Shown piece after piece: positions 2 to 12,730 of a DNA stretch of 32,068 nucleotides (its first letter is position 1; every line of letters starts with the position of its first letter). This DNA is from a virus. A program made the position numbers and the translations under genes. The stretch spans positions 1 through 32,068 of the IMG/VR virus record IMGVR_UViG_3300013132_000152; one strand, 5' to 3'. The notes under the pieces were generated by a model. That model was not told the origin of the DNA, did not search any database, and saw only the letters and a program-made list of their open reading frames with translations.

Positions 2-793
2 GCTGATGCACAAAGAAAGGGTCATTTACCTGTACTCATAATCACAGAGAAGAAATGGAATTGGGCTCATGCTGTTGAATTGGGGTTGAATGCTGAACTC
101 AATGAAGATGGTGAGTGGGATGGTGATTTCATATTCAATGATTCATTTGATTATATTGAGCAAATGACTGATTTTATAAATGAAATTATTGATGAGCAAG
201 AAAAAGGTGATTTACCGTATTCAATTTTATTCTTGATTGATAGTATTGGATCCATACCTTGCAAAATGACTTATGATGGTAAGGGTGGCAAAATGCACAA
301 TGCAGCAGTTCTTGCAGACAAGGTTGGGATGGGCTTGCATTCAAGAATATCAAAATCAAAGAAGGAAGATTATCCTTACTATAACACAATGGTGGTTATT
401 AACCAACCTTGGGTAGAATTGCCAGATTCACCATTTGGGCAACCAACAATCAAGGCAAAAGGTGGTGAGGCATTATGGTTGGCATCTTCATTAATATTCT
501 TATTTGGAAATCAGAAGAATGCTGGTATTAACCATATAACAGCAACAAAGAATGGTAGAACTGTTTCCTATGCAATTAGAACAAAAGTATCCATATTGAA
601 AAACCATGTAACAGGTATAGCATATAAGGATGGCAAGATACTGGCTGTTCCCCAAGGTTATTTACCTGATACAAAAGAATCCATTGAAAAGTATAAGAAA
701 GAATATTCACAATACTGGAATGGTATTTTATCTGGGGATGGAGATATTACATTCTCTGAAAAAGAAGAAGAGGAAACTATAATTTTTGAATAA
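2..793 (+). CDS. uvsX: RecA/UvsX-type recombinase, 5' part outside window
   Basis: The frame is open from the first bases of the window to a TAA at 791-793, so 263 residues of the C-terminal part are visible and the true start lies upstream. I see a RecA-fold core: a Walker B strand (LFLIDSIGSIP, about 225-257), the strand leading into loop L2 with its conserved Asn-Gln (VVINQPWV, about 390-412), then a Gly-rich segment followed by an ALWLASSL strand like the RecA GGxALKF region. The tail is acidic (EKEEEETIIFE), as in RecA and UvsX. The Walker A motif would be upstream. By family knowledge the protein forms filaments on single-stranded DNA and drives strand exchange during recombination-dependent phage replication. 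Its place beside a flap nuclease and a replicative helicase fits. UvsX as opposed to another RecA-family phage ATPase is an inference. Confidence 0.78.
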   Translation, partial: ADAQRKGHLPVLIITEKKWNWAHAVELGLNAELNEDGEWDGDFIFNDSFDYIEQMTDFINEIIDEQEKGDLPYSILFLIDSIGSIPCKMTYDGKGGKMHNAAVLADKVGMGLHSRISKSKKEDYPYYNTMVVINQPWVELPDSPFGQPTIKAKGGEALWLASSLIFLFGNQKNAGINHITATKNGRTVSYAIRTKVSILKNHVTGIAYKDGKILAVPQGYLPDTKESIEKYKKEYSQYWNGILSGDGDITFSEKEEEETIIFE

Positions 794-794
794 C

Positions 795-1784
795 ATGAAG
801 AAAACCCTACTAATAGATGGAAACAATTTATTTACAATTGGTTTTCATGGTGTCCGTGAATTTTATTCTGAAGGAAAACATATTGGTGGGGTTTTCCATT
901 TTTTAAATACAATAAGATTATTTCTTGAAAAACATAATCATGATAAAGTTGTTGTATTCTGGGATGGGAATGAAAATTCACTAGTAAGAAAAAACATATA
1001 CCCAAGGTATAAGGAAAACCGTAGGATTTCTATGGATGAACACAAATATGAATCATACTTATATCAGAGGGATAGAGTTAAGGATTATCTTGAAGAAATA
1101 TTTGTTAGACAATGCCAGGTGGATCAGAATGAGGCTGATGATTTAATTGCCAATTACACACAAGTGGCAAATGATGAGAATATGATTATTTTTTCTGGTG
1201 ATAAAGATTTAACACAATTAATTAAAAATAATGTAACAATATATTCACCAGTTTCTAAGGTTTATTATAAGAATGGAGATTTAATAAACTTTAAAGATAT
1301 TGATATTCCCCATAATAATGTCTATGTTTATAAAGTCTTAGTTGGGGATACATCAGATAATATATATGGCATAGCAAATTTTGGAGAAAAGAAATTAAAA
1401 ACATTGTTTCCAAATTTTGAAAAAAGGGATTATACATTGAATGAAATTATAAGTGAGGCAAAGTTAATGTATGAACAAACCAAGAGTAAAACTTTGAATA
1501 ATATAATATCTGGTGTTAGTAAATCTGGTTTGGTTGGGGATGAGTTTTTTGAAACAACTGGTAAAATAATTGATTTAAAAAATCCACTTATAACAGATGA
1601 AGGCAAGAAAATGGTGCAGGAGATTTATAGTGAAAAATTAGACCCAACTGACAGAAGTTATAAGAACTTATTAAAATTAATGAGGGATGATGGATTCTTT
1701 AAGTTCTTACCAAAGAGAGAAGATGCTTGGGTTGATTTTGTTAGACCATTTATGAAATTAAGTAGAAAAGAGAAAAAAAATTAA
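795..1784 (+). CDS. 5'-3' exonuclease / flap endonuclease (T4 RNase H-like)
   Basis: A 329-residue FEN/PIN-like nuclease. Acidic active-site residues occur in the expected order: D8 in LLIDGNN, D57 in VFWDG, E113/D115/D116 in QNEADD, D136/D138 in FSGDKD, then D185/D188 in VLVGDTSDN, followed by a helix-hairpin-helix-like GIANFGEKK. A basic arch-like segment RKNIYPRYKENRR lies between. By family knowledge it removes RNA primers and 5' flaps from lagging-strand DNA. T4 RNase H is about 305 residues, so the length fits. I chose the ATG at 795 over an in-frame TTG at 786: the latter falls inside the upstream gene, and the family starts just before the LIDGNN strand. It follows the recombinase gene after one base, suggesting co-transcription and perhaps translational coupling. 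Confidence 0.88.
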   Translation: MKKTLLIDGNNLFTIGFHGVREFYSEGKHIGGVFHFLNTIRLFLEKHNHDKVVVFWDGNENSLVRKNIYPRYKENRRISMDEHKYESYLYQRDRVKDYLEEIFVRQCQVDQNEADDLIANYTQVANDENMIIFSGDKDLTQLIKNNVTIYSPVSKVYYKNGDLINFKDIDIPHNNVYVYKVLVGDTSDNIYGIANFGEKKLKTLFPNFEKRDYTLNEIISEAKLMYEQTKSKTLNNIISGVSKSGLVGDEFFETTGKIIDLKNPLITDEGKKMVQEIYSEKLDPTDRSYKNLLKLMRDDGFFKFLPKREDAWVDFVRPFMKLSRKEKKN

Positions 1785-1802
1785 TAAATTAAACAAACAA
1801 TT

Positions 1803-2261
1803 ATGAGACAGAGCGAAACAACAAAGGTGGAGTTTTTATTAACATTAAACAACAACATTATTGTTCAAAGATTTTTAAACATTAAAAACATTAATCCAAA
1901 TGCAAAGGATTCTTTGGAAATTTATGATTTTGTTAAATACTTTTCTGATGACCTTGAAAAGTATTTAAAGATGAAATCAATAGGTTATCTTGTTGACAAC
2001 AAAGATAGCATTTTGTATGACCCAACCATTATGGAAACTTCATCAACAGATGAGCCAGAATTATTTAACATTTATGTTAAAATTGCAGATCAGATTGTAT
2101 CTCATAGAATTCTTGATGGAAAGCAATATCCACCAAAAGTTAGGTACACTGTTGACATTAGACACTTCATTAAGGATTCTTTAAAAGAATTAACAAATAT
2201 CCTAATAAGTGAGAATTTAACACACCAGTATTTAGAGAAGAATTTATTGTCTAACCACTAA
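1803..2261 (+). CDS. Hypothetical protein between nuclease and helicase
   Basis: A 152-residue protein that I do not recognise. It starts at an ATG behind an A-rich leader and ends nine bases before the helicase gene. The sequence is mixed charged and hydrophobic with no signal peptide, membrane segment or metal-binding motif. Predicted-looking helices dominate the middle (DDLEKYLKMK) and the C-terminus (IKDSLKELTNILISENL). Its place between a flap nuclease and a DnaB-type helicase makes a replication accessory role, such as a helicase loader or single-strand-binding factor, a reasonable guess, but this rests on position alone. Codon and base use match its neighbours. Confidence 0.8.
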   Translation: MRQSETTKVEFLLTLNNNIIVQRFLNIKNINPNAKDSLEIYDFVKYFSDDLEKYLKMKSIGYLVDNKDSILYDPTIMETSSTDEPELFNIYVKIADQIVSHRILDGKQYPPKVRYTVDIRHFIKDSLKELTNILISENLTHQYLEKNLLSNH

Positions 2262-2270
2262 TATTTTTTT

Positions 2271-4031
2271 ATGTCAAAGAATTTTGATTACTTGGGTCAA
2301 ACATTCCAACTGCAACTAATCAATCAAATTATATTGGATAAGGAGTTTGCAAGAGCAATATTAGATTTCATTAAGATATCTTATTTTGAGAATAAGTATT
2401 TTAAGTTAATCATTCAGATGATTAAGGAATATCATAAGAAATATGATGCTGCCCCAAACTTTGAGACATTGAATATGATTGCCAAGTCTGAAATTTCCCA
2501 AGAATTGGCATTAAAGATTGTTATTGATACAATAACAAATATTAGTAATGCCCCCCTTGATGGTGTTGAATTAGTTCAAGAGAAAGCATTAAAATTCTGT
2601 AAACAAGAAGAAGTTAAGATTGTTCTGGAAAAAGCACAGAAGGTAATTAATGAGGGAGATTTTGAATCTTATGATCAACTTGAAACTTTATTAAGATATG
2701 CTTTACAAGTTGGTGTTAAAGAGACAAATGGTTTTGAGGTTTTTAATGATTTGGTTGGTGTATTAGATGAGGATTATAGACACCCAATACCAATGGGTGT
2801 GAAGGGCATAGATTTCCTTTTAAAGGGGGGTTTGGCAAAAGGTGAGGTAGGAATAGTATTTGCTGGCCCAGGTATTGGCAAATCAACTCTATTGACCTTA
2901 ATTGCAAACACAGCATTCAATAATAATTATAATGTGTTGCATATCTTTTTTGAAGATAATCCAAAAATCATTCAGAGAAAGCATATAACCCTATGGACAA
3001 AGATATCACCAGATGAATTGCCAAATCATAAAGATGTTGTTTTTGAAACTGTTAATAATATAAAAGAATCCCATACAAATAAATTAATATTAAAGAAGTT
3101 ACCATCTGACACATTAACAATGAATCAGATAAAGAATCAGATTAGAAAAGTGATTGCTGATGGTATTAAACTTGATTTGGTTGTTTTGGATTATATTGAT
3201 TGTGTTGTTCCAGATAGACAAGGTGGTGATGATTGGAAAAATGAAGGATCAGTTATTCGTCATTTTGAGGCTATGTGTCATGAGTTGAATATTGCTGGAT
3301 GGCTTGGTACGCAAGGAAATAGATGTGTTTCTTTAGATACTATTGTGGATATTGAGAATAAAGGATTGGTTCAAATAAAGGATGTTGTTGTTGGAGATAA
3401 TATTCTAACTCATAAAGGATATAAAGCAATTAGTTATATATTTCCTATTGAGAAGCAGCCTGTTTATAGAATTAAGACAAAAAGTGGAAAGGAAATAAAA
3501 GTGTCAGCAAAGCACAAATTTCCAACATTAGGTGGGGGGTTCTTATCCATTGATAGTGGTTTGTCTGTTGGTAATACGCTTTTTATTAAAGATAAGAATA
3601 ATATTTTTGATGAAATTGAATCAATTGAATTGGTAGGTGAAGAGGATACAATTGACATTACTGTTGATGATACCCATATGTTTTATGCCAATGACATTTA
3701 CACACACAACTCATCTATTTCTGCAAATGTGGTAACGAATGACCAGATGGGGGGTTCAATTAAGAAAGCCCAGGTTGGGCATGTTATTATTAGTATTGCA
3801 AAGAGTTTGCAACAGAAGGAGATGAACTTGGCCACAGTTGCAATAACCAAGTCAAGGATTGGTAAAGATGGCATTGTATTTGAGAATTGCAAGTTTGATA
3901 ATGAAATGCTTGAAATTGACACAGACACAACAGCAACATTTTTAGGATTTGAAGAACAACAAGTGGAGCGCAAGAAAGAAAGGATTAAAGAATTATTGGT
4001 TAAGAAAAATAGCAATGATAATTTTTTATAA
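2271..4031 (+). CDS. dnaB: Replicative DNA helicase (DnaB/gp41-like) containing a mini-intein
   Basis: A 586-residue precursor. Residues 1-150 form a helical N-terminal domain of DnaB type. The RecA-like motor follows, with Walker A at residues 199-206 (GPGIGKST), a catalytic-Glu-type strand (HIFFEDN, about 224-230) and Walker B (LDLVVLDYID, 301-310). Residue 351 is the Arg of a TQGNR motif equivalent to the conserved Q-x-N/S-R motif. There the reading frame runs into a 129-residue intein (residues 352-480), after which the motor resumes with SSISANVVTNDQMGGSIKK. The spliced protein would be 457 residues, close to T4 gp41 (475). By family knowledge it forms a hexamer that unwinds DNA 5'-3' on the lagging strand and partners with a primase, which is not seen here. 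Start: ATG nine bases after the previous stop. Confidence 0.9.
   Translation: MSKNFDYLGQTFQLQLINQIILDKEFARAILDFIKISYFENKYFKLIIQMIKEYHKKYDAAPNFETLNMIAKSEISQELALKIVIDTITNISNAPLDGVELVQEKALKFCKQEEVKIVLEKAQKVINEGDFESYDQLETLLRYALQVGVKETNGFEVFNDLVGVLDEDYRHPIPMGVKGIDFLLKGGLAKGEVGIVFAGPGIGKSTLLTLIANTAFNNNYNVLHIFFEDNPKIIQRKHITLWTKISPDELPNHKDVVFETVNNIKESHTNKLILKKLPSDTLTMNQIKNQIRKVIADGIKLDLVVLDYIDCVVPDRQGGDDWKNEGSVIRHFEAMCHELNIAGWLGTQGNRCVSLDTIVDIENKGLVQIKDVVVGDNILTHKGYKAISYIFPIEKQPVYRIKTKSGKEIKVSAKHKFPTLGGGFLSIDSGLSVGNTLFIKDKNNIFDEIESIELVGEEDTIDITVDDTHMFYANDIYTHNSSISANVVTNDQMGGSIKKAQVGHVIISIAKSLQQKEMNLATVAITKSRIGKDGIVFENCKFDNEMLEIDTDTTATFLGFEEQQVERKKERIKELLVKKNSNDNFL
3324..3710 (+). other. Mini-intein (129 aa) in the replicative helicase
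   Basis: An in-frame insertion bounded by Cys1 (TGT at 3324) and a terminal His-Asn (CAC AAC, 3705-3710), with Ser as the +1 residue. Splicing blocks visible: block A CVSLDTIVDIENKGLVQIKD, block B with an S-x-x-H (VSAKHKF), block F (VDDTHMFYANDIYTHN). No LAGLIDADG or other endonuclease motif lies between blocks B and F, and 129 residues is near the lower limit reported for functional inteins. It interrupts the TQGNR/SS junction of the helicase motor. All splicing residues look intact, so I infer it still splices but cannot home by itself. Confidence 0.9.
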
Positions 4032-4108: not shown

Positions 4109-6862
4109 ATGAAGAACATTTTTGAAAAGAGGGTGAATATTTTGCCTTATGAATATCCATCCTTATTAGCATATAAGGATGCAATTAGACATGCTTACTG
4201 GCTTCATTGTGTTGGAGATAACCAACGTGTAGTGACTAGTGAAGGTATGTTTACTGTTAAAGAATTGTATGAACAGGATAAAGAATTGATTTTATTTGAT
4301 GGGGTTAAAGAAGTTAAATCATCAAAGATGATAAGGACTGGTCATAGAAGTATATATAGACTAACAACAAAAGAGGGTTATGTACATGATGTGACTAATG
4401 ATCATAGGGTATTAACCAAAGATGGTTGGAAAGAAGTTAAAGATTTGGTTGTTGATGATAAATTAATAATACAAACAAAAAAAGGTTTATTTGGTAATGA
4501 ACATTTTCCTGAATTGGCTTTTCTAATAGGGCACTACCAAGGGGATGGTCATAATCATGGGAATGGATATGCTTGGCATGTTTGGAGTCATAAATATCAT
4601 TTCATTGATGAATTAGAATTAGCCTTAAATAAAGTTTATTCTCATTATGACTTAAAAGGTAAAGTTCCAACATTTGGTGCAGAGCATATAACTAGCCAAA
4701 ATGTTAGAAGTAGGAAAATGATTTCCAAAAGAATACCATATACATTTGTTAAGGGTGTTGTTCCTGAATTGGTTTGGAGAGGTACTGAAGAAACTATTAA
4801 AAGTTATTTAAAAGGTTTGTATATTACTGATGGGTGTGTTTATCAGAGTAAAAAACATCAATCTATAAAAATATCACAAAGTAATTATGATTTTATATGT
4901 GAAATACAATTATTATTACTTAATTTAGGTATTAAATCAACAGTTTATAAAAAAAATGGTTCTAAGCAATTAATGCCAGATGGTAAAGGTGGTTGTGATT
5001 TATATAATGTTAAAGATAACTACACAATTGAAGTAACACATTATGAATCAGTTAAGCTAATTAATGAATTTACAAACTTATTTGAATCAAGGGGTAAAGT
5101 GCATAGGGAAATCACAAATCCAAATAAATCTAATCCAATAATTGAAGCTAGATTTTTATCTTTAGAATATCTTTATGATGATTATGTTTATTGTGTTAGT
5201 GTGGATAATAAAGAATACCCTGCATGGGTGTGTAATGGATTTGTAACACATAATACTGAATTCAATTTCACAACTGATATTGATGATTATAGAACAAAGA
5301 TATCAAATGAGGAAAGAGAGGTTATTAAAAGGACAATGTTGGCAATTGCACAAATTGAGGTGAATGTTAAAACATTCTGGGCTGATCTCTATAAAAGAAT
5401 GCCAATAACTGAAATTGGTGATGTTGGTATGACCTTTGCAGAATGTCATGGTGAGGGTACTGAAATACTAACACCCAAAGGCTGGGTTAACTTTAAGGAT
5501 ATTGATATCAATACAGAAGTCATTCAGTATGATTTAGAAACAAATACAATGACATCTGTTTTACCAAGTAATGTTATCAATGAACCTTATAAGGGAAAAA
5601 TGCACAGGATTGAGAACCAAACATACAATGCATTACTAACCCCCAACCATAATATCTACTACAAAACAAGGAGTGGTAATATTATAAAGAAGCCTATAAA
5701 AGATATTGCTAAATTTAGTAGTGATATGAAATTGCCTTTTTCTGGTAAATTTGTTAATGAGGGGGTTGATGAGTTGAGTTTAGAGGATAAACTTAATATT
5801 GAAAACTTTGATTGGGTTGACTTATCAAACAAATCTGAAAAATGGTGCAATTCCTTTATTGATGAATTAACAAAATTGGGGGTATTTAAACTTGATAGTG
5901 ATAATCAAAATGGTGAATATGTTATTAAGTATCAAACTATTAGTAAATTATTTGCAGATAAGTTGCAAGTTATAGGTATTTTTGCTGGATATGCAGTTGA
6001 TATAACTAATGATAAAGATGTATATACTATTAGTTTTGTAAACACAGAGCCTTATTCCTCAATAACATATACACCTACCATTGAAGATTATGATGGTAAC
6101 ATCTATTGTGTTACAGTTCCTACTGGATGTATTGTGACTAGATACAATGATAAAGTTTTAATTTCAGGAAACTCGGAAGTTCGCCATAAGGATGCTTATG
6201 CTCAATTATTAAGAATTCTTGGATTGGAGGATGAGTTCCAGACTGTTATTGAAATCCCTGCCATAAAGAACAGAATCAATTACTTAACAAAATATTTGGA
6301 TGGAACTAGGAGCAAAGAGAATAAAATGTACACAAAGTCTGTATTATTATTTTCATTGTTTATTGAACATGTAAGTTTGTTTAGCCAGTTCTTGATTATG
6401 ATGTCCTTTAATAAGGAAAAGAATTTATTCAAGGGTATTTCAAATGTAGTTGAAGCCACCTCAAAAGAGGAAGAAATTCATGGCAATTTTGGATCAGAAC
6501 TTATCAATATTATTAAGCAAGAAAATCCAGAATGGTTTGATGAAGAGTTTGAAGCATTGGTTGTATCAGCTTGCAAGAAAGCATATGCTGCTGAATGTGG
6601 AATATTGGATTGGATATTTGAGAATGGTGAATTAACTTTCTTATCAAAAGAAACAATTAAACAATTCATTCAAAATAGATTTAATAATTCATTAAATAGA
6701 ATTGGAATGAAGTCAATATTTGATGTTGATTTTACAGAGATTGAAAAAACATTATGGTTTGATGTGGAGATTTTATCAACAAAGGAGGGGGATTTCTTCT
6801 ATAAGAAATCAGTGGATTATAATAAAAAAAGCAAGAGCATAACAGAGGATGACTTATTTTAA
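4109..6862 (+). CDS. nrdB: Ribonucleotide reductase class I small subunit (NrdB) with two inteins
   Basis: A 917-residue precursor that becomes about 325 residues after removal of inteins at residues 34-382 and 446-688. In the precursor the metal ligands are visible as E417 (first ligand, Glu rather than the Asp of E. coli D84), E690 and H693 (EVRH, matching E115/H118), E753 (FIEHVSLF), and E788/H791 (EEIH). Y697 lies four residues after H693, the position of the radical tyrosine Y122. By family knowledge NrdB makes the diferric-tyrosyl radical that NrdA uses to reduce ribonucleotides. The ATG follows a 77-base gap, one of the larger gaps in this module, and an A-rich leader. The end overlaps the first possible nrdA start by 14 bases. 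The lack of stops through both insertions argues for inteins rather than introns. Confidence 0.93.
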   Translation: MKNIFEKRVNILPYEYPSLLAYKDAIRHAYWLHCVGDNQRVVTSEGMFTVKELYEQDKELILFDGVKEVKSSKMIRTGHRSIYRLTTKEGYVHDVTNDHRVLTKDGWKEVKDLVVDDKLIIQTKKGLFGNEHFPELAFLIGHYQGDGHNHGNGYAWHVWSHKYHFIDELELALNKVYSHYDLKGKVPTFGAEHITSQNVRSRKMISKRIPYTFVKGVVPELVWRGTEETIKSYLKGLYITDGCVYQSKKHQSIKISQSNYDFICEIQLLLLNLGIKSTVYKKNGSKQLMPDGKGGCDLYNVKDNYTIEVTHYESVKLINEFTNLFESRGKVHREITNPNKSNPIIEARFLSLEYLYDDYVYCVSVDNKEYPAWVCNGFVTHNTEFNFTTDIDDYRTKISNEEREVIKRTMLAIAQIEVNVKTFWADLYKRMPITEIGDVGMTFAECHGEGTEILTPKGWVNFKDIDINTEVIQYDLETNTMTSVLPSNVINEPYKGKMHRIENQTYNALLTPNHNIYYKTRSGNIIKKPIKDIAKFSSDMKLPFSGKFVNEGVDELSLEDKLNIENFDWVDLSNKSEKWCNSFIDELTKLGVFKLDSDNQNGEYVIKYQTISKLFADKLQVIGIFAGYAVDITNDKDVYTISFVNTEPYSSITYTPTIEDYDGNIYCVTVPTGCIVTRYNDKVLISGNSEVRHKDAYAQLLRILGLEDEFQTVIEIPAIKNRINYLTKYLDGTRSKENKMYTKSVLLFSLFIEHVSLFSQFLIMMSFNKEKNLFKGISNVVEATSKEEEIHGNFGSELINIIKQENPEWFDEEFEALVVSACKKAYAAECGILDWIFENGELTFLSKETIKQFIQNRFNNSLNRIGMKSIFDVDFTEIEKTLWFDVEILSTKEGDFFYKKSVDYNKKSKSITEDDLF
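4208..5254 (+). mobile_element. Intein 1 of NrdB (349 aa) with LAGLIDADG endonuclease
   Basis: It lies between WLH and TEF of NrdB. Cys1 (TGT at 4208) opens block A; block B has T-x-x-H (VTNDHRVLT); the end is VTHN followed by Thr as +1. In the middle are two LAGLIDADG-type motifs, each with its acidic residue: LIGHYQGDG (about 4521-4547) and LKGLYITDG (about 4807-4833). The endonuclease therefore looks intact and the element may be able to home. The usual block F His is replaced (VDNKEYPAW). Its ends and several internal stretches resemble intein 2 of NrdA. Confidence 0.92.
5444..6172 (+). other. Intein 2 of NrdB (243 aa), endonuclease degenerate
   Basis: It lies between FAE and SEVRH of NrdB, one residue ahead of a metal-binding Glu. 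It begins CHGEGTEILTPKGWVNF (TGT at 5444), has block B T-x-x-H (LTPNHNIYY), and ends KVLISGN with Ser as +1. The penultimate residue is Gly, not the usual His, so the mode of Asn cyclisation differs from the standard one. No LAGLIDADG motif remains. The stretch from DWVDLSNKSEKW to FAGYAVDI resembles the last part of a LAGLIDADG half-domain (a Y-x-T-x-S-x-x-LA-D pattern), so I infer a decayed endonuclease. Confidence 0.87.
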
Positions 6863-6875
6863 AAAAACAAATAAA

Positions 6876-9800
6876 ATGAATAAAGAAAAATATTATTGGC
6901 TAAATGATGAGAGTAGGCTTTTCTTATCAAGGGGGTATATTAATGAAACCCCCGAGCAAAGAATAAAAGATATTGCAAATAAAGCAGAAGAATATTTAAA
7001 GATTGATGGGTTTGCTACCAAGTTTGAAGACTATATGGCAAGGGGTTTTTATAGCCTATCAACACCTGTATGGATTAATTTTGGTAAGGAGAAAGGATTA
7101 CCAATTAGTTGTCTAGCAGGTGATTCATGGATAAATACTTATGATGAAGGTGGTAAACAAATTAAAGATATAGAAATTGGAGACTTAGTTTTAACACATA
7201 AAGGTAGATACCGCAAAGTAACAAACAAACAAGTACGAATGTCTGATAATGATATTTTTGAATTAAAAGTACAAACAAGATTAACACCTATTAAAATAAC
7301 TGGTAATCACCCTGTTTTAACAAATCTTGGATGGGTAAGGGTAGATGAACTTGATGATAAAAAACATTATATAGCTACCAATTATTTTATAGAGCATATT
7401 GAAAAAAACCATAAAATTAATTTTAAAACTCCAGTTCAAAATGAAAATGGAATGTATCGTGCAAAATCTGTTTTGGATATAGAAGTTGATGAAGATTTTG
7501 CTTGGGCTCTTGGTTTGTGGTTTGCAGAAGGATCATTAATCACAAATAAAGGAAAACCTACTGGTATTAGAATAACTATGAATGTAAATGAAGAAGATAA
7601 AGTAGATAGATTCCTTAAAATAATTAAAGACAAAACAGGACTTAATGGCAGTTTTACTAAATCAGTACTTGTTAGAGATGGTAAAGAAATTAATTGGATT
7701 ACTTGTAACATAAGTTCAACTATTTTGGCGGCTTACTTTGAGTCTGAATTTGGTAATTCTTGTAAAACAAAAAATATTAAACCTTGGGTTAAAGAATTAC
7801 CAAAAAAAATGCTTGAAGAATTTGTAAAAGGATTTTATGATGGGGATGGAAAAAAAACATCAAATCATAAATATTTTACAATATCAAACCCAAAGTTAGC
7901 AATGTCAATTTATGAATTGTCTCTTAGAAGCGGGTATTTTGTTGGTCTTCAAATGCAAGAAAAGGCTGGAAAGTTAGCAACTACTAAATATGTATATAGA
8001 GTGTCTTATTATAAAGATGATAAAAAAATATCACTAAATAGGAATTACAAGGATTCTAACATTATTTTTGATAAATTAAGATTTTGTCCATTTTCTTTAT
8101 CTAAAAAAACGCATAATGAATATGTTTATGATATTACAGTTGAAGAAGATCATTCTTTTAGTGTGTCAGGAGTAGTTGTACATAACTGTTATGGTTCCAA
8201 TATTGACGATACTTTAGACAGTATTTTAAATGCTGGAAGGGAGATTGGAATGATGTCAAAATATGGTGGTGGAACAAGTGCCTATCTTGGTAATATTAGG
8301 GCTAGGGGTAGCAAGATTTCAACAGGGGGTACAGCAGATGGTCCGGTTCATTATGCAAGGGTATATGATACAGTTGTTGATGTTTGTAAGCAATCAGAAG
8401 CAAGGAGGGGTGCATGTGCAGTTTGGCTACCAATTGAACATGATGATATTTTGGAGTTCTTGGATATTGGAACAGAAGGCAATCCAATCCAGAATTTGCA
8501 ATATGGTGTTACAGTTACAGATAACTGGATTAATGATATGAAAGGTGGAGACCCCCAGAAAAGGAAGATATGGGCAAAGGTTATTCAAAGACGCAATGAG
8601 TTTGGTTTTCCATATATTATGTTCAAAGATAATTCAAACAATAACACAACACCATACAAAGAATTGGGTATGGAAATAACTGCCTCAAATCTTTGTTTAA
8701 CAGAAGACCAAAGAGTTGTTACATCAAAAGGTTATTTGACTGTTAAAGAATTGTATGAGAGTGGTGAGGAATTGGTTTTATTTAGTGGAAATGAAGCAGT
8801 TAAATCATCTCCTATGTTATTAAGAAATGAAGATGCTGAAATATTGAAAATAACATATTCAAATGGAATGACACAAAAGGTGACATTTAATCATGGAATA
8901 CCAGTTCTTAATGATACAATGGGTAAAATTCAAAGAGTTGAAGCAAAAGATTTAAAAATTGGTGACTATGTTGCTTTACAAACAGAAAAAGGTTTATTTG
9001 GTGATTTGGATATGCAAGATGAGGCTTATTTGTTGGGTGCAGCAAATAGTCTTTTGAGTGAAGATAAACCTAAACACATTGTTCCATCATACATATGGAA
9101 ATCAAATGAAGAAACTGTTAAATCTTATTTATATGGATTATTTAATACATCTGATAATAATTTTAATGGGGTATATGTTGGGCAAAGTGATTTTATTTCT
9201 GATTTGCAAATATTATTTAGTAATTTAGGAATTAATTGTAATATTGAAACTTTGAATAGTAATACATCAAAAATTACAATCAAAAAACATAATGGTGAGT
9301 TGGGGGTTAAGGTTGTTGCAATTGAACAAGTAGATAATGAGCCAGTATATTGTCCAACAGTTGATAATGATGAGCATATCTTTGTATCAAATGGTTTGAG
9401 AACATTTAACTGTTCAGAAATCCAATTGCCAACAGACTCACTTAATTCTTTTGTTTGTTGCTTGGGTTCATTAAATTTGCTTCATTGGGATGAGATTAAA
9501 AATAGTGATGCAATTGAGATTTATGTTATGTTTTTGAATGCAGTTATGGATGAATTTATTCTTAAATCTGGTAAGATGGCAGGAATGAAGAGGGCTAATA
9601 GATTTGCATCACAACATAGAGCAATTGGTTTGGGGGTATTAGGTTATCATTCATTATTCCAATCAAAATTAGTTCCATTTGAATCTTTGATGGCAAAGCA
9701 ATTAAATAATCAAATTTTCAAAACAATTAAGGAAAGATCAGATGCAACATCAAGATATTTGTTTGAGGAAAAAGGTTACAAGTCATTAAGAGATGGCTAT

Positions 9801-10298
9801 GCAAATACAACATTAATTGCCGTAGCACCAACCAAATCAAGTTCATTTATTTTAGGACAGGTAAGTATGGGTATTGAGCCAATAAAATCAAATTATTTTA
9901 TTAAAGATTTGGCAAAATCAAAAACAATTTATAAGAATCCATTTTTGGAAATTGAGTTAGATAAATATGGTTTAAATACGCCAGAAATCTGGGAAAGCAT
10001 TTTGAAGAAGGATGGATCAGTTCAGCATCTGGATTTTCCAACCAAGGAGGTGTTTAAATCATTTATTGAAATATCACCAAAAGAACTTATATTACAAGCA
10101 GCACAAAGGCAAAAATATATTGACCAATCACAATCACTTAACTTGATGATTCATCCATCAGTCCCAGCAAAAGATATAAATCAGTTATATTTATATGCTC
10201 ATGAGGAGGGTGTTAAGACTTTGTATTATCAGTTTAGCCAAAGTTCAGCACAATCATTTGCAAGGAATATAAATGAATGTGTGAGTTGCGAATCATAG
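6876..10298 (+). CDS. nrdA: Ribonucleotide reductase class I large subunit (NrdA) with two inteins
   Basis: A 1140-residue precursor; about 542 residues after removal of inteins at residues 79-437 and 607-845. After splicing, catalytic motifs appear: PISC at the first redox Cys (C438, like E. coli C225), N605-L-C846-S-E848 (N437/C439/E441, the thiyl radical site), C861 in CCLGSLNL (like C462), Y1117-Y1118 in KTLYYQ (radical path), and a C-terminal C1135-V-S-C1138. There is no ATP-cone at the N-terminus, and the mature enzyme is much shorter than E. coli or T4 NrdA (about 750), so overall-activity control by dATP is probably missing. I chose ATG 6876, behind an A-rich leader and giving MNKEKYYWLN. 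An in-frame ATG at 6849 overlaps nrdB and is the alternative. It ends in TAG just before a terminator. Confidence 0.93.
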   Translation: MNKEKYYWLNDESRLFLSRGYINETPEQRIKDIANKAEEYLKIDGFATKFEDYMARGFYSLSTPVWINFGKEKGLPISCLAGDSWINTYDEGGKQIKDIEIGDLVLTHKGRYRKVTNKQVRMSDNDIFELKVQTRLTPIKITGNHPVLTNLGWVRVDELDDKKHYIATNYFIEHIEKNHKINFKTPVQNENGMYRAKSVLDIEVDEDFAWALGLWFAEGSLITNKGKPTGIRITMNVNEEDKVDRFLKIIKDKTGLNGSFTKSVLVRDGKEINWITCNISSTILAAYFESEFGNSCKTKNIKPWVKELPKKMLEEFVKGFYDGDGKKTSNHKYFTISNPKLAMSIYELSLRSGYFVGLQMQEKAGKLATTKYVYRVSYYKDDKKISLNRNYKDSNIIFDKLRFCPFSLSKKTHNEYVYDITVEEDHSFSVSGVVVHNCYGSNIDDTLDSILNAGREIGMMSKYGGGTSAYLGNIRARGSKISTGGTADGPVHYARVYDTVVDVCKQSEARRGACAVWLPIEHDDILEFLDIGTEGNPIQNLQYGVTVTDNWINDMKGGDPQKRKIWAKVIQRRNEFGFPYIMFKDNSNNNTTPYKELGMEITASNLCLTEDQRVVTSKGYLTVKELYESGEELVLFSGNEAVKSSPMLLRNEDAEILKITYSNGMTQKVTFNHGIPVLNDTMGKIQRVEAKDLKIGDYVALQTEKGLFGDLDMQDEAYLLGAANSLLSEDKPKHIVPSYIWKSNEETVKSYLYGLFNTSDNNFNGVYVGQSDFISDLQILFSNLGINCNIETLNSNTSKITIKKHNGELGVKVVAIEQVDNEPVYCPTVDNDEHIFVSNGLRTFNCSEIQLPTDSLNSFVCCLGSLNLLHWDEIKNSDAIEIYVMFLNAVMDEFILKSGKMAGMKRANRFASQHRAIGLGVLGYHSLFQSKLVPFESLMAKQLNNQIFKTIKERSDATSRYLFEEKGYKSLRDGYANTTLIAVAPTKSSSFILGQVSMGIEPIKSNYFIKDLAKSKTIYKNPFLEIELDKYGLNTPEIWESILKKDGSVQHLDFPTKEVFKSFIEISPKELILQAAQRQKYIDQSQSLNLMIHPSVPAKDINQLYLYAHEEGVKTLYYQFSQSSAQSFARNINECVSCES
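7110..8186 (+). mobile_element. Intein 1 of NrdA (359 aa) with LAGLIDADG endonuclease
   Basis: It starts CLAGDSW (TGT at 7110) after LPIS and ends VVVHN, with the catalytic Cys of CYGSNIDD as +1. Block B is ITGNHPVLT, block F is VEEDHSFSVSG; both key His are present, as is the canonical His-Asn end. Two LAGLIDADG motifs carry acidic residues: LGLWFAEGS (about 7507-7533) and VKGFYDGDG (about 7823-7849). All splicing and endonuclease signatures are intact by eye, so it is the best candidate here for an active homing intein. Confidence 0.93.
8694..9410 (+). other. Intein 2 of NrdA (239 aa), decayed relative of NrdB intein 1
   Basis: It starts CLTEDQRVVTSKGYLTVKEL (TGT at 8694) after ASNL and ends GLRTFN, with the radical-site Cys of CSEIQLP as +1. 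Block B is VTFNHGIPV and block F is VDNDEHIFVSNG. The penultimate residue is Phe instead of His. It matches NrdB intein 1 over block A (DQRVVTS-G--TVKELYE), QT-KGLFG and EET-KSYL-GL. The first LAGLIDADG motif has become LLGAANSLL, about 60 residues after it are missing, and the second reads LYGLFNTSD. I infer loss of endonuclease activity with splicing kept. Confidence 0.88.
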
Positions 10299-10416: not shown

Positions 10417-10893
10417 ATGCCTGAAGGGTTTACATATGGGGTGAAATTTCCTTTTGATACATCAACAAGGGGTGATGCCTTAAAAATGACAGAAACAGCA
10501 GCAGACGAGGTTAGGTCTGCATTATTGCATTTATTGTTAACAAGAAAAGGGAGCAGATATTATCTTCCTGATTTTGGAACAAGACTTTATGAATATTTAT
10601 TTGAACCAATGGATATTGTATCATTTGATATTATTGAAAATGACATACGTGATGCTATTTCAAAGTATATACCTAATTTGATTATTAATAATATAACCAT
10701 TGAACCAATTGCTCAAGATGAAGAAGTTCAAACAACAAAACTAAATCTTGATGATGTTGGATTAAGTTCAGCAGATAAAATTTACAGATCACCAGGAAAT
10801 GGTACATACCAAAATACAGCAAAAATAAAAATAGAATATACTACAAATAATAATACTTTTGCTGGTAGTGATTTTGTTATAATAAATATATAA
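10417..10893 (+). CDS. Baseplate wedge subunit, gp25/GPW-like
   Basis: A 158-residue protein. The N-terminal half carries the gp25 family pattern: VRSALLHLLLTRKGSRYYLPDFG followed by TRLYEYLFEP, then a helix ending in the NDIRDAISKYIPNL segment and a beta strand with NNITIE (the longer stretch is read from about 10507 to 10700). T4 gp25 is 132 residues; here an extra C-terminal segment of about 50 residues follows. By family knowledge gp25 joins the baseplate wedge to the gp6 ring and helps start sheath assembly, marking a contractile tail. It is the first gene after the terminator and is followed after one base by the gp6-like gene, its known partner. The 57 bases before the start are very AT-rich, with no promoter I can name. 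Confidence 0.87.
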   Translation: MPEGFTYGVKFPFDTSTRGDALKMTETAADEVRSALLHLLLTRKGSRYYLPDFGTRLYEYLFEPMDIVSFDIIENDIRDAISKYIPNLIINNITIEPIAQDEEVQTTKLNLDDVGLSSADKIYRSPGNGTYQNTAKIKIEYTTNNNTFAGSDFVIINI

Positions 10894-10894
10894 T

Positions 10895-12730
10895 ATGGCA
10901 GATAGAAAAATATCATATGGTGTTAGAGACTTTCAGAGTATAAGAGCTGAATTATTAAATTATGTAAGTACATACTACCCTAATTTAATAAATGATTTTA
11001 GTGATGCTTCCATATTCTCTGTATTCCTTGACTTGAACGCAGCAGTTGCAGATAATTTGCATTATCATATTGATAGAAGTTTACAAGAAACAGTATTGCA
11101 ATATGCACAGCAAAAATCATCTATCTATAATATAGCAAGAACTTATGGGTTAAAAATACCAGGGCAAAGAGCTTCATTAACCTTATGTGATTTTTCAATA
11201 ACTGTTCCAGTATCTGGGGATCAGCCAGATTATAATTATGCAGGTGTTCTACAAAGAGGAGCACAAGTTTTTGGAAATGGAGTTTCATTTGAAACAATTA
11301 ATGATATTGATTTTAAATCAACTTATAGCACACAAGGTGTAAGTAATTTAACTGTAATACCAAACAAATTAAATAACACTATAATTAATTACACATTAAC
11401 AAAAAGAGAACCAGTTATAAATGGAACAACAAAAGTATTAAAAAGAGTTATAACACCATCAGATGTTAGACCATTTTTTGAATTATTCTTACCAGATAAG
11501 AATGTTTTGGGTATAACAAGTGTATTATTGAAAGATGGACAAATAAGTACAGTTCCACCATCATCAGAATTCATTGGTGAAACAAATAAATGGTATGAGG
11601 TTGATTCTTTGGCAGAAGATAGGGTTTTCATTATTGACCAAACAAAAGATACTGGGAATGCTGGTATAAAAGTTGGTAAATACATTCAAACAGATAATAG
11701 ATTTATAAGTGAATTTACAGCAGAAGGGTTTAAGAAATTAACATTTGGAAATGGAGTTAATACAGCATTGGAACAATTAAACCAATTTACAACAACAGGG
11801 CAATTACCAATGTTGCAGAATTATTTGAATAATTTCTCATTAGGTAGAACTTTAAAACCTAATAGCACATTGTTTGTTCAGTATAGAGTTGGTGGTGGTT
11901 TAAATACAAATCTTGGGCCAAATACAATAAATCAAATTGGGACAAATGTATTCACAATAAATGCAGGAAATCCAGCCCAAGAAGCAGCTGTAGTTAATTC
12001 ATTGAGAGTCAATAATAACTTTCCAGCAATTGGGGGTGCTGGATTACCATCTACGGAGGAAGTTAGAAATTTTGTTTCGTTCAATTTTGCAGCACAAAAA
12101 AGAGCAGTAACAATAAACGATTATGAGGCAATAATTAGAAATATGCCAGCCCAATTTGGTGCACCAGCAAAAGTTGCAATTCAAGAAGTGGATAATAAGA
12201 TTGAAGTTCTTGTTTTATCTTATGATTTAAATGGAAAGTTAATTAGTGATAATTCAAAATTCTTAACAGATAATATTGCAAATTATTTATCAAATTATAG
12301 AATGATAAATGATTACATTGTTGTATCATCTGCAAAAGTTATAGATATTGGTGTTGAGGTTGCTGTAACAATATCAACAGGGTTTAATACAAAAGATATT
12401 ATAAATAATATTATTTCAACAATTAATACTTATTTATCACCTCAAAATATGCAATTAGGTAAAGATATAAACATATCTGAAATAAAGAGCAATATCCAAA
12501 GTTTGAATGGTGTTGTTGCTGTATCAAATATTTTATTTAAAAATTTGGTTGGTGGCAATTATTCTGGTGGTGAGCCAGTAGTAGGGTATTATCCACCAGC
12601 ATCAAATAGAATTATTGTGGCATCTAATGAGATAATTTATGCAGATTCAAATGAGATATATCATATAAGATATCCTGAAAAAGATATTACAGTCAAAGTT
12701 AATACAAATAGTGGATTGACCATTATTTAA
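10895..12730 (+). CDS. Baseplate wedge protein, gp6-like (baseplate J family)
   Basis: A 611-residue protein; T4 gp6 has 660. The N-terminus (about residues 10-100) shows the family pattern: a DFQSIRAELLNYV helix, then FSDASIFSVFLDLNAAVAD, a tyrosine/histidine-rich HYHIDRSLQET, and a later AARTYGL-like helix (IARTYGLKIPG). The middle has a beta-rich domain with FGNGV (about residues 284-290). The C-terminal half has NFAAQKRAVTINDYEAII and a repeated alpha/beta domain (VEVAVTISTGFNTKDIINNI, KDINISEIKSNIQSL) as in baseplate J proteins. By family knowledge gp6 dimers form the ring that ties wedges together and rearrange on tail contraction. It starts one base after the gp25-like stop. Confidence 0.87.
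   Translation: MADRKISYGVRDFQSIRAELLNYVSTYYPNLINDFSDASIFSVFLDLNAAVADNLHYHIDRSLQETVLQYAQQKSSIYNIARTYGLKIPGQRASLTLCDFSITVPVSGDQPDYNYAGVLQRGAQVFGNGVSFETINDIDFKSTYSTQGVSNLTVIPNKLNNTIINYTLTKREPVINGTTKVLKRVITPSDVRPFFELFLPDKNVLGITSVLLKDGQISTVPPSSEFIGETNKWYEVDSLAEDRVFIIDQTKDTGNAGIKVGKYIQTDNRFISEFTAEGFKKLTFGNGVNTALEQLNQFTTTGQLPMLQNYLNNFSLGRTLKPNSTLFVQYRVGGGLNTNLGPNTINQIGTNVFTINAGNPAQEAAVVNSLRVNNNFPAIGGAGLPSTEEVRNFVSFNFAAQKRAVTINDYEAIIRNMPAQFGAPAKVAIQEVDNKIEVLVLSYDLNGKLISDNSKFLTDNIANYLSNYRMINDYIVVSSAKVIDIGVEVAVTISTGFNTKDIINNIISTINTYLSPQNMQLGKDINISEIKSNIQSLNGVVAVSNILFKNLVGGNYSGGEPVVGYYPPASNRIIVASNEIIYADSNEIYHIRYPEKDITVKVNTNSGLTII

Follow-up and report, generated by a model that had tools for sequence, protein, structure and literature searches.

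The nrdA gene studied here raises the question of why two inteins in one viral ribonucleotide reductase (RNR) should each sit directly before a cysteine of the active site, and whether this placement regulates the enzyme or offers the inteins a safe harbour. In the window, by which we mean the whole stretch of 32,068 nucleotides of viral DNA that was analysed, the gene and its inserts are arranged as follows:

6849..10298, + strand: nrdA, class Id-type RNR alpha subunit with two inteins; 1149 aa precursor, 551 aa spliced
7110..8186, + strand: intein A1, 359 aa, with a LAGLIDADG homing endonuclease, before the C225 equivalent
8187..8189, + strand: +1 Cys codon of A1; precursor C447, spliced C88, E. 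coli C225
8694..9410, + strand: intein A2, 239 aa mini-intein, endonuclease lost, before the C439 equivalent
9411..9413, + strand: +1 Cys codon of A2; precursor C855, spliced C257, E. coli C439, the thiyl-radical Cys

The region 6849-10298 is a single open frame of 1149 codons with no stops, in which A1 and A2 are both in frame, and the precursor matches TIGR02510 at 645 bits against a cut-off of 602. When both inserts are removed, the resulting 551 aa protein matches PDB 6dqx, its closest structure, nearly end to end (E 3e-197) and is also similar to 6dqw; the TIGR02510 match, these similarities and the cysteine triad C88, C257 and C272 mark it as a class Id-type NrdA. In a global alignment to E. 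coli NrdA, C225 corresponds to spliced C88, C439 to C257 and C462 to C272, and the equivalents of Y730/Y731 are retained along with the active-site cysteines; 6dqx, 6dqw and human R1 (3hnc) give the same cysteine correspondence. It had been proposed in the first-pass annotation that A1 lies between PIS and the C225-equivalent Cys and that A2 places the thiyl-radical Cys at +1, and these alignments bear out both statements, since each +1 Cys falls on an active-site cysteine of class I RNR structures and not elsewhere. The junctions (marked by slashes) read PIS/CLAGD...VVVHN/CYGSN for A1 and SNL/CLTED...LRTFN/CSEI for A2. The span 7107-9413 given in that annotation is that of the exact intein limits (7110-8186 and 8694-9410) plus one codon on each side, and its C438 and C846 are precursor C447 and C855, numbered from an ATG 27 nt downstream.

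A1 has the residues of a class 1 intein, namely Cys1, T64/H67 in block B, D341 in block F, the terminal pair H358-N359 and the +1 Cys; it scores above the Pfam PF14890 cut-off, and its predicted structure (pLDDT 81) matches intein-endonuclease structures. The endonuclease contains two LAGLIDADG motifs, whose acids E140 and D246 are invariant across 11 A1-family sequences; it is apparently intact, and A1 has probably retained its ability to home. Besides two near-identical loci, 15 more viral loci have an A1-family intein at the C225 bond, and those read all have a +1 Cys.

A2, which is only just above the PF14890 cut-off, is predicted to adopt a Hint fold (pLDDT 84), and the model matches intein structures; structure modelling used sequences from the window and related loci, leaving out LR756511 and the other phage-record entry. 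Cys1, T64/H67 (block B), Asn239 and the +1 Cys are present, position F:4 is occupied by Cys220, and Phe takes the penultimate place. A2 is 137 residues shorter than its nearest full-length relatives, the missing part being the endonuclease (LAGLIDADG) region; the deletion in the window is common to L090 and L092, and the inteins of L140, L152 and L160 are shortened otherwise. The same A2 junction residues recur in many relatives. Some matches cover only part of A2 (residues 1-119 or 1-142) and could suggest split inteins, a reading that was rejected because those loci carry full-length in-frame inteins, and a search of bacterial and archaeal genome contigs with A2 gave three relatives only, too few for a census.

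The window also holds the gene for the partner subunit, which has two inteins of its own:

4109..6862, + strand: nrdB, class Id-type beta subunit with two inteins; 14 nt overlap with nrdA
4208..5254, + strand: intein B1, 349 aa, LAGLIDADG domain, after WLH, +1 Thr; two residues past the W48 equivalent
5444..6172, + strand: intein B2, 243 aa, +1 Ser; directly before the E115/H118 metal-ligand motif

In total, the nrdBA pair carries four inteins, each at a radical-chemistry motif. B2 has 243 aa as against the 327 aa form in relatives, and B1 of NrdB is homologous to A2 of NrdA (pairwise E 9e-28) despite having +1 Thr where A2 has +1 Cys. In the related locus L130, NrdA has a second intein at a different site (SQGS/CYIEG...VCGN/TRRG), which is related to B2 (28% identity, E 2e-34). 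Because of the homology between B1 and A2 and the B2-like intein in L130 NrdA, the A2/B1 and B2 intein families appear to have passed from one gene to another. In A2 (C220), B1 and B2 the Asp of block F:4 is replaced by Cys, with Cys1 kept, and A1 alone has Asp; judged by these residues, A2, B1 and B2 show what is an unusual combination of class 1 and class 3 features.

Comparison with relatives that lack the inteins bears out the boundaries of A1 and A2, both being in-frame inserts that are absent from close homologues. All four nrdBA sites are empty in 69 of 80 viral relatives, including L005, whose NrdA is 97% identical to that of the window; these relatives were retrieved with an intein-free query, which favours empty alleles, so this count should not be taken as a population frequency. 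Intein queries served to retrieve the filled alleles, and the state of each site was called from local identity around each junction. A1 is filled and A2 empty in L087, A2 is filled and A1 empty in L091 and L093, and both are filled in L177-L181, L187 and LR756511. In a marine survey that covered about 18,700 viral RNRs, inteins are reported for eight sequences (PMC12918982). It had been claimed that the site cannot be lost from the host protein, which fits the published view that an intein at a conserved site is protected and that such sites are an obstacle to host immunity (PMC2814812), but the inteins themselves are readily absent, as the 69 empty loci demonstrate.

Divergence between alleles points in the same direction as their patchy occurrence. 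Between the window and L087, dS is 0.188 for A1 as against 0.787 for the NrdA extein, and between the window and L090-L092 it is 0.22-0.28 for A2 as against 0.56-0.75 for the extein, from which A1 and A2 are estimated to be far younger than the host genes. A low intein dS would be the signature of horizontal gain and then endonuclease erosion, as in the homing cycle; causes other than transfer may also make intein and extein dS differ. Synonymous extein differences are dense right up to the A1 junction, and therefore little of the flank was co-converted. Since A2 is without an endonuclease and yet appears younger than nrdA, its spread would need trans-acting cleavage or ordinary recombination. 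The dN/dS of A1 and A2 is 0.11-0.27, which would fit kept splicing, and that of the NrdA extein is 0.04-0.09 in the genome pairs measured.

Because of this presence/absence polymorphism and the low intein dS, A1 and A2 are in all likelihood mobile inteins of a largely selfish character that target invariant active-site codons. Homing endonucleases would aim at DNA whose sequence the host must keep, which would bring inteins to invariant active-site Cys codons; at such codons imprecise removal would be impossible, and the inteins would persist there. A1 would cleave DNA in this way, and A2 would be an eroded mini-intein, kept because its splicing is essential. We infer from their residues that A1 and A2 splice, each being expected to do so by Cys1, the block B His, the C-terminal Asn and the +1 Cys, with the last becoming C225 or C439 once the reductase is mature. 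Inteins are known to prefer conserved codons and active sites, which the literature explains by evasion of both deletion and host immunity (PMC2814812, PMC5784728), and the active-site placement seen here is already known in kind, as the usual location of such mobile elements. Of the 551 extein residues of spliced NrdA, 80 are C, S or T, and for two insertions placed at random before C/S/T the probability that each falls on one of the three active-site cysteines of the barrel is about 0.001, or about 0.025 if limited to the 16 C/S/T common to 6dqx and E. coli. The cysteine placement exceeds chance, and preference for invariant sites accounts for most of the excess.

The C439 bond holds inteins well beyond the relatives of the window. 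One example is the bnrdE gene of SPbeta (SPBc2, NC_001884), whose annotated intein is homologous to A2 and interrupts the same bond before the C439 equivalent (SNL/C...GN/CSE), but which encodes an annotated class Ib NrdE rather than a class Id NrdA and has an intein of 385 aa with an endonuclease; no intein was found at the C225 site of this gene. The bond is likewise filled in staphylococcal SPbeta-like nrdE, in Vibrio PG07 and Proteus PM135 (both with an aerobic class Ia annotation), in the triphosphate reductase of Thermus G20c (N-junction NP/C), and in a Halobacteriales MAG (NP/C...HN/CGEQ), with only the N-junction, NP/C, seen in a Thermoflexus MAG. The C439 site is, on these matches, a widely reused target across several RNR types and domains. 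Closer to the window is nrdA of LR756511, a 595 kb uncultured phage, which has homologous inteins at the A1 and A2 sites with +1 Cys in each, but its A2 is full length (367 aa) and its A1 is about 48% identical.

A different arrangement is found in L130 and L133, where an A2-family intein lies one codon later (SNMC/C...HN/SEI and SNLC/C...HN/SEI), so that the catalytic Cys is at -1, Ser is the +1 nucleophile, and splicing would restore the catalytic Cys. The NrdJ-1 split intein also sits just after the radical Cys (NPC/SEI). The statement of the first-pass annotation that the splicing nucleophile is the very residue needed for catalysis therefore holds for A1 and A2 of the window and is not obligatory; because L130 and L133 place the catalytic Cys at -1, identity of the two residues is frequent and not required, with the target sequence as the common factor.

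That an unspliced NrdA chain is inactive can soundly be inferred, and it had been suggested that the inteins keep the enzyme switched off until a redox or timing signal sets it free, the placement on catalytic cysteines being adaptive as a form of conditional protein splicing. Cys1 and the +1 Cys in both inteins, plus C220 of A2, could form disulfides, and there are precedents. In Mycobacterium smegmatis (Msm) DnaBi1, a P-loop intein, the host active-site serine doubles as splicing residue, as the host cysteines do in the window, and a disulfide at the F-block Cys, a residue shared with A2, blocks splicing (PMC6195587); DnaBi1 is, however, a class 3 intein in a helicase whose redox response was measured, whereas the window inteins are known from sequence. 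The Aquifex aeolicus R2 intein, which raises iron loading, is also an RNR intein among active-site residues, lying between metal ligands (PMC8772380), but it is in a bacterial beta subunit and its extein +1 Cys230 is itself no metal ligand. The intein dN/dS below 0.3 shows constraint, yet constraint is expected from keeping splicing alone; block F:4 of A1 is the ordinary Asp, the A1 and A2 alleles are young and mobile, and the catalytic Cys is flipped to -1 in relatives. The easy absence of inteins in near relatives, down to one with 97% NrdA identity, argues against a needed switch. Redox or timing control is unsupported, in that no sequence feature demands it, and adaptive gating of this kind is unlikely. 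A narrower form, in which A2 splicing would be redox-gated via a three-Cys centre (Cys1, Cys220 and the +1 Cys) and the phage reductase completed only in a reducing cell, is highly improbable.

It is very doubtful, too, that the inteins no longer splice and that nrdA is a decaying gene. A2 has neither a penultimate His nor the Asp of block F, and degeneration of an intein-bearing nrdA has been proposed for Campylobacter phages (PMC3653736); splicing without a penultimate His has, however, been published, in a JBC 2000 paper as cited in PMC8772380. Decay also fits poorly with the open, stop-free frame of nrdA, the retained active-site cysteines and Y730/Y731 equivalents, the low dN/dS of extein (0.04-0.09) and inteins, and the identity of A2 junction residues in many relatives.

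Present evidence favours safe harbour over regulation, with A1 and A2 as mobile elements at codons that cannot change. The locus offers one enzyme with both inserts on essential cysteines, for which empty, filled, full-length and eroded alleles are available, and the one-codon shift of the insertion in relatives, by which the catalytic Cys ends up at -1 instead of +1, makes the choice between the two testable in one gene family. If the inteins did gate the reductase, protein splicing would be linked to phage nucleotide supply.

The genes around nrdBA bear on the kind of virus involved. Exonuclease and DnaB-like helicase genes lie upstream of nrdB at 786-4031, and baseplate wedge-like genes follow right after nrdA at 10417-12730, these gene neighbours indicating a contractile-tailed phage.
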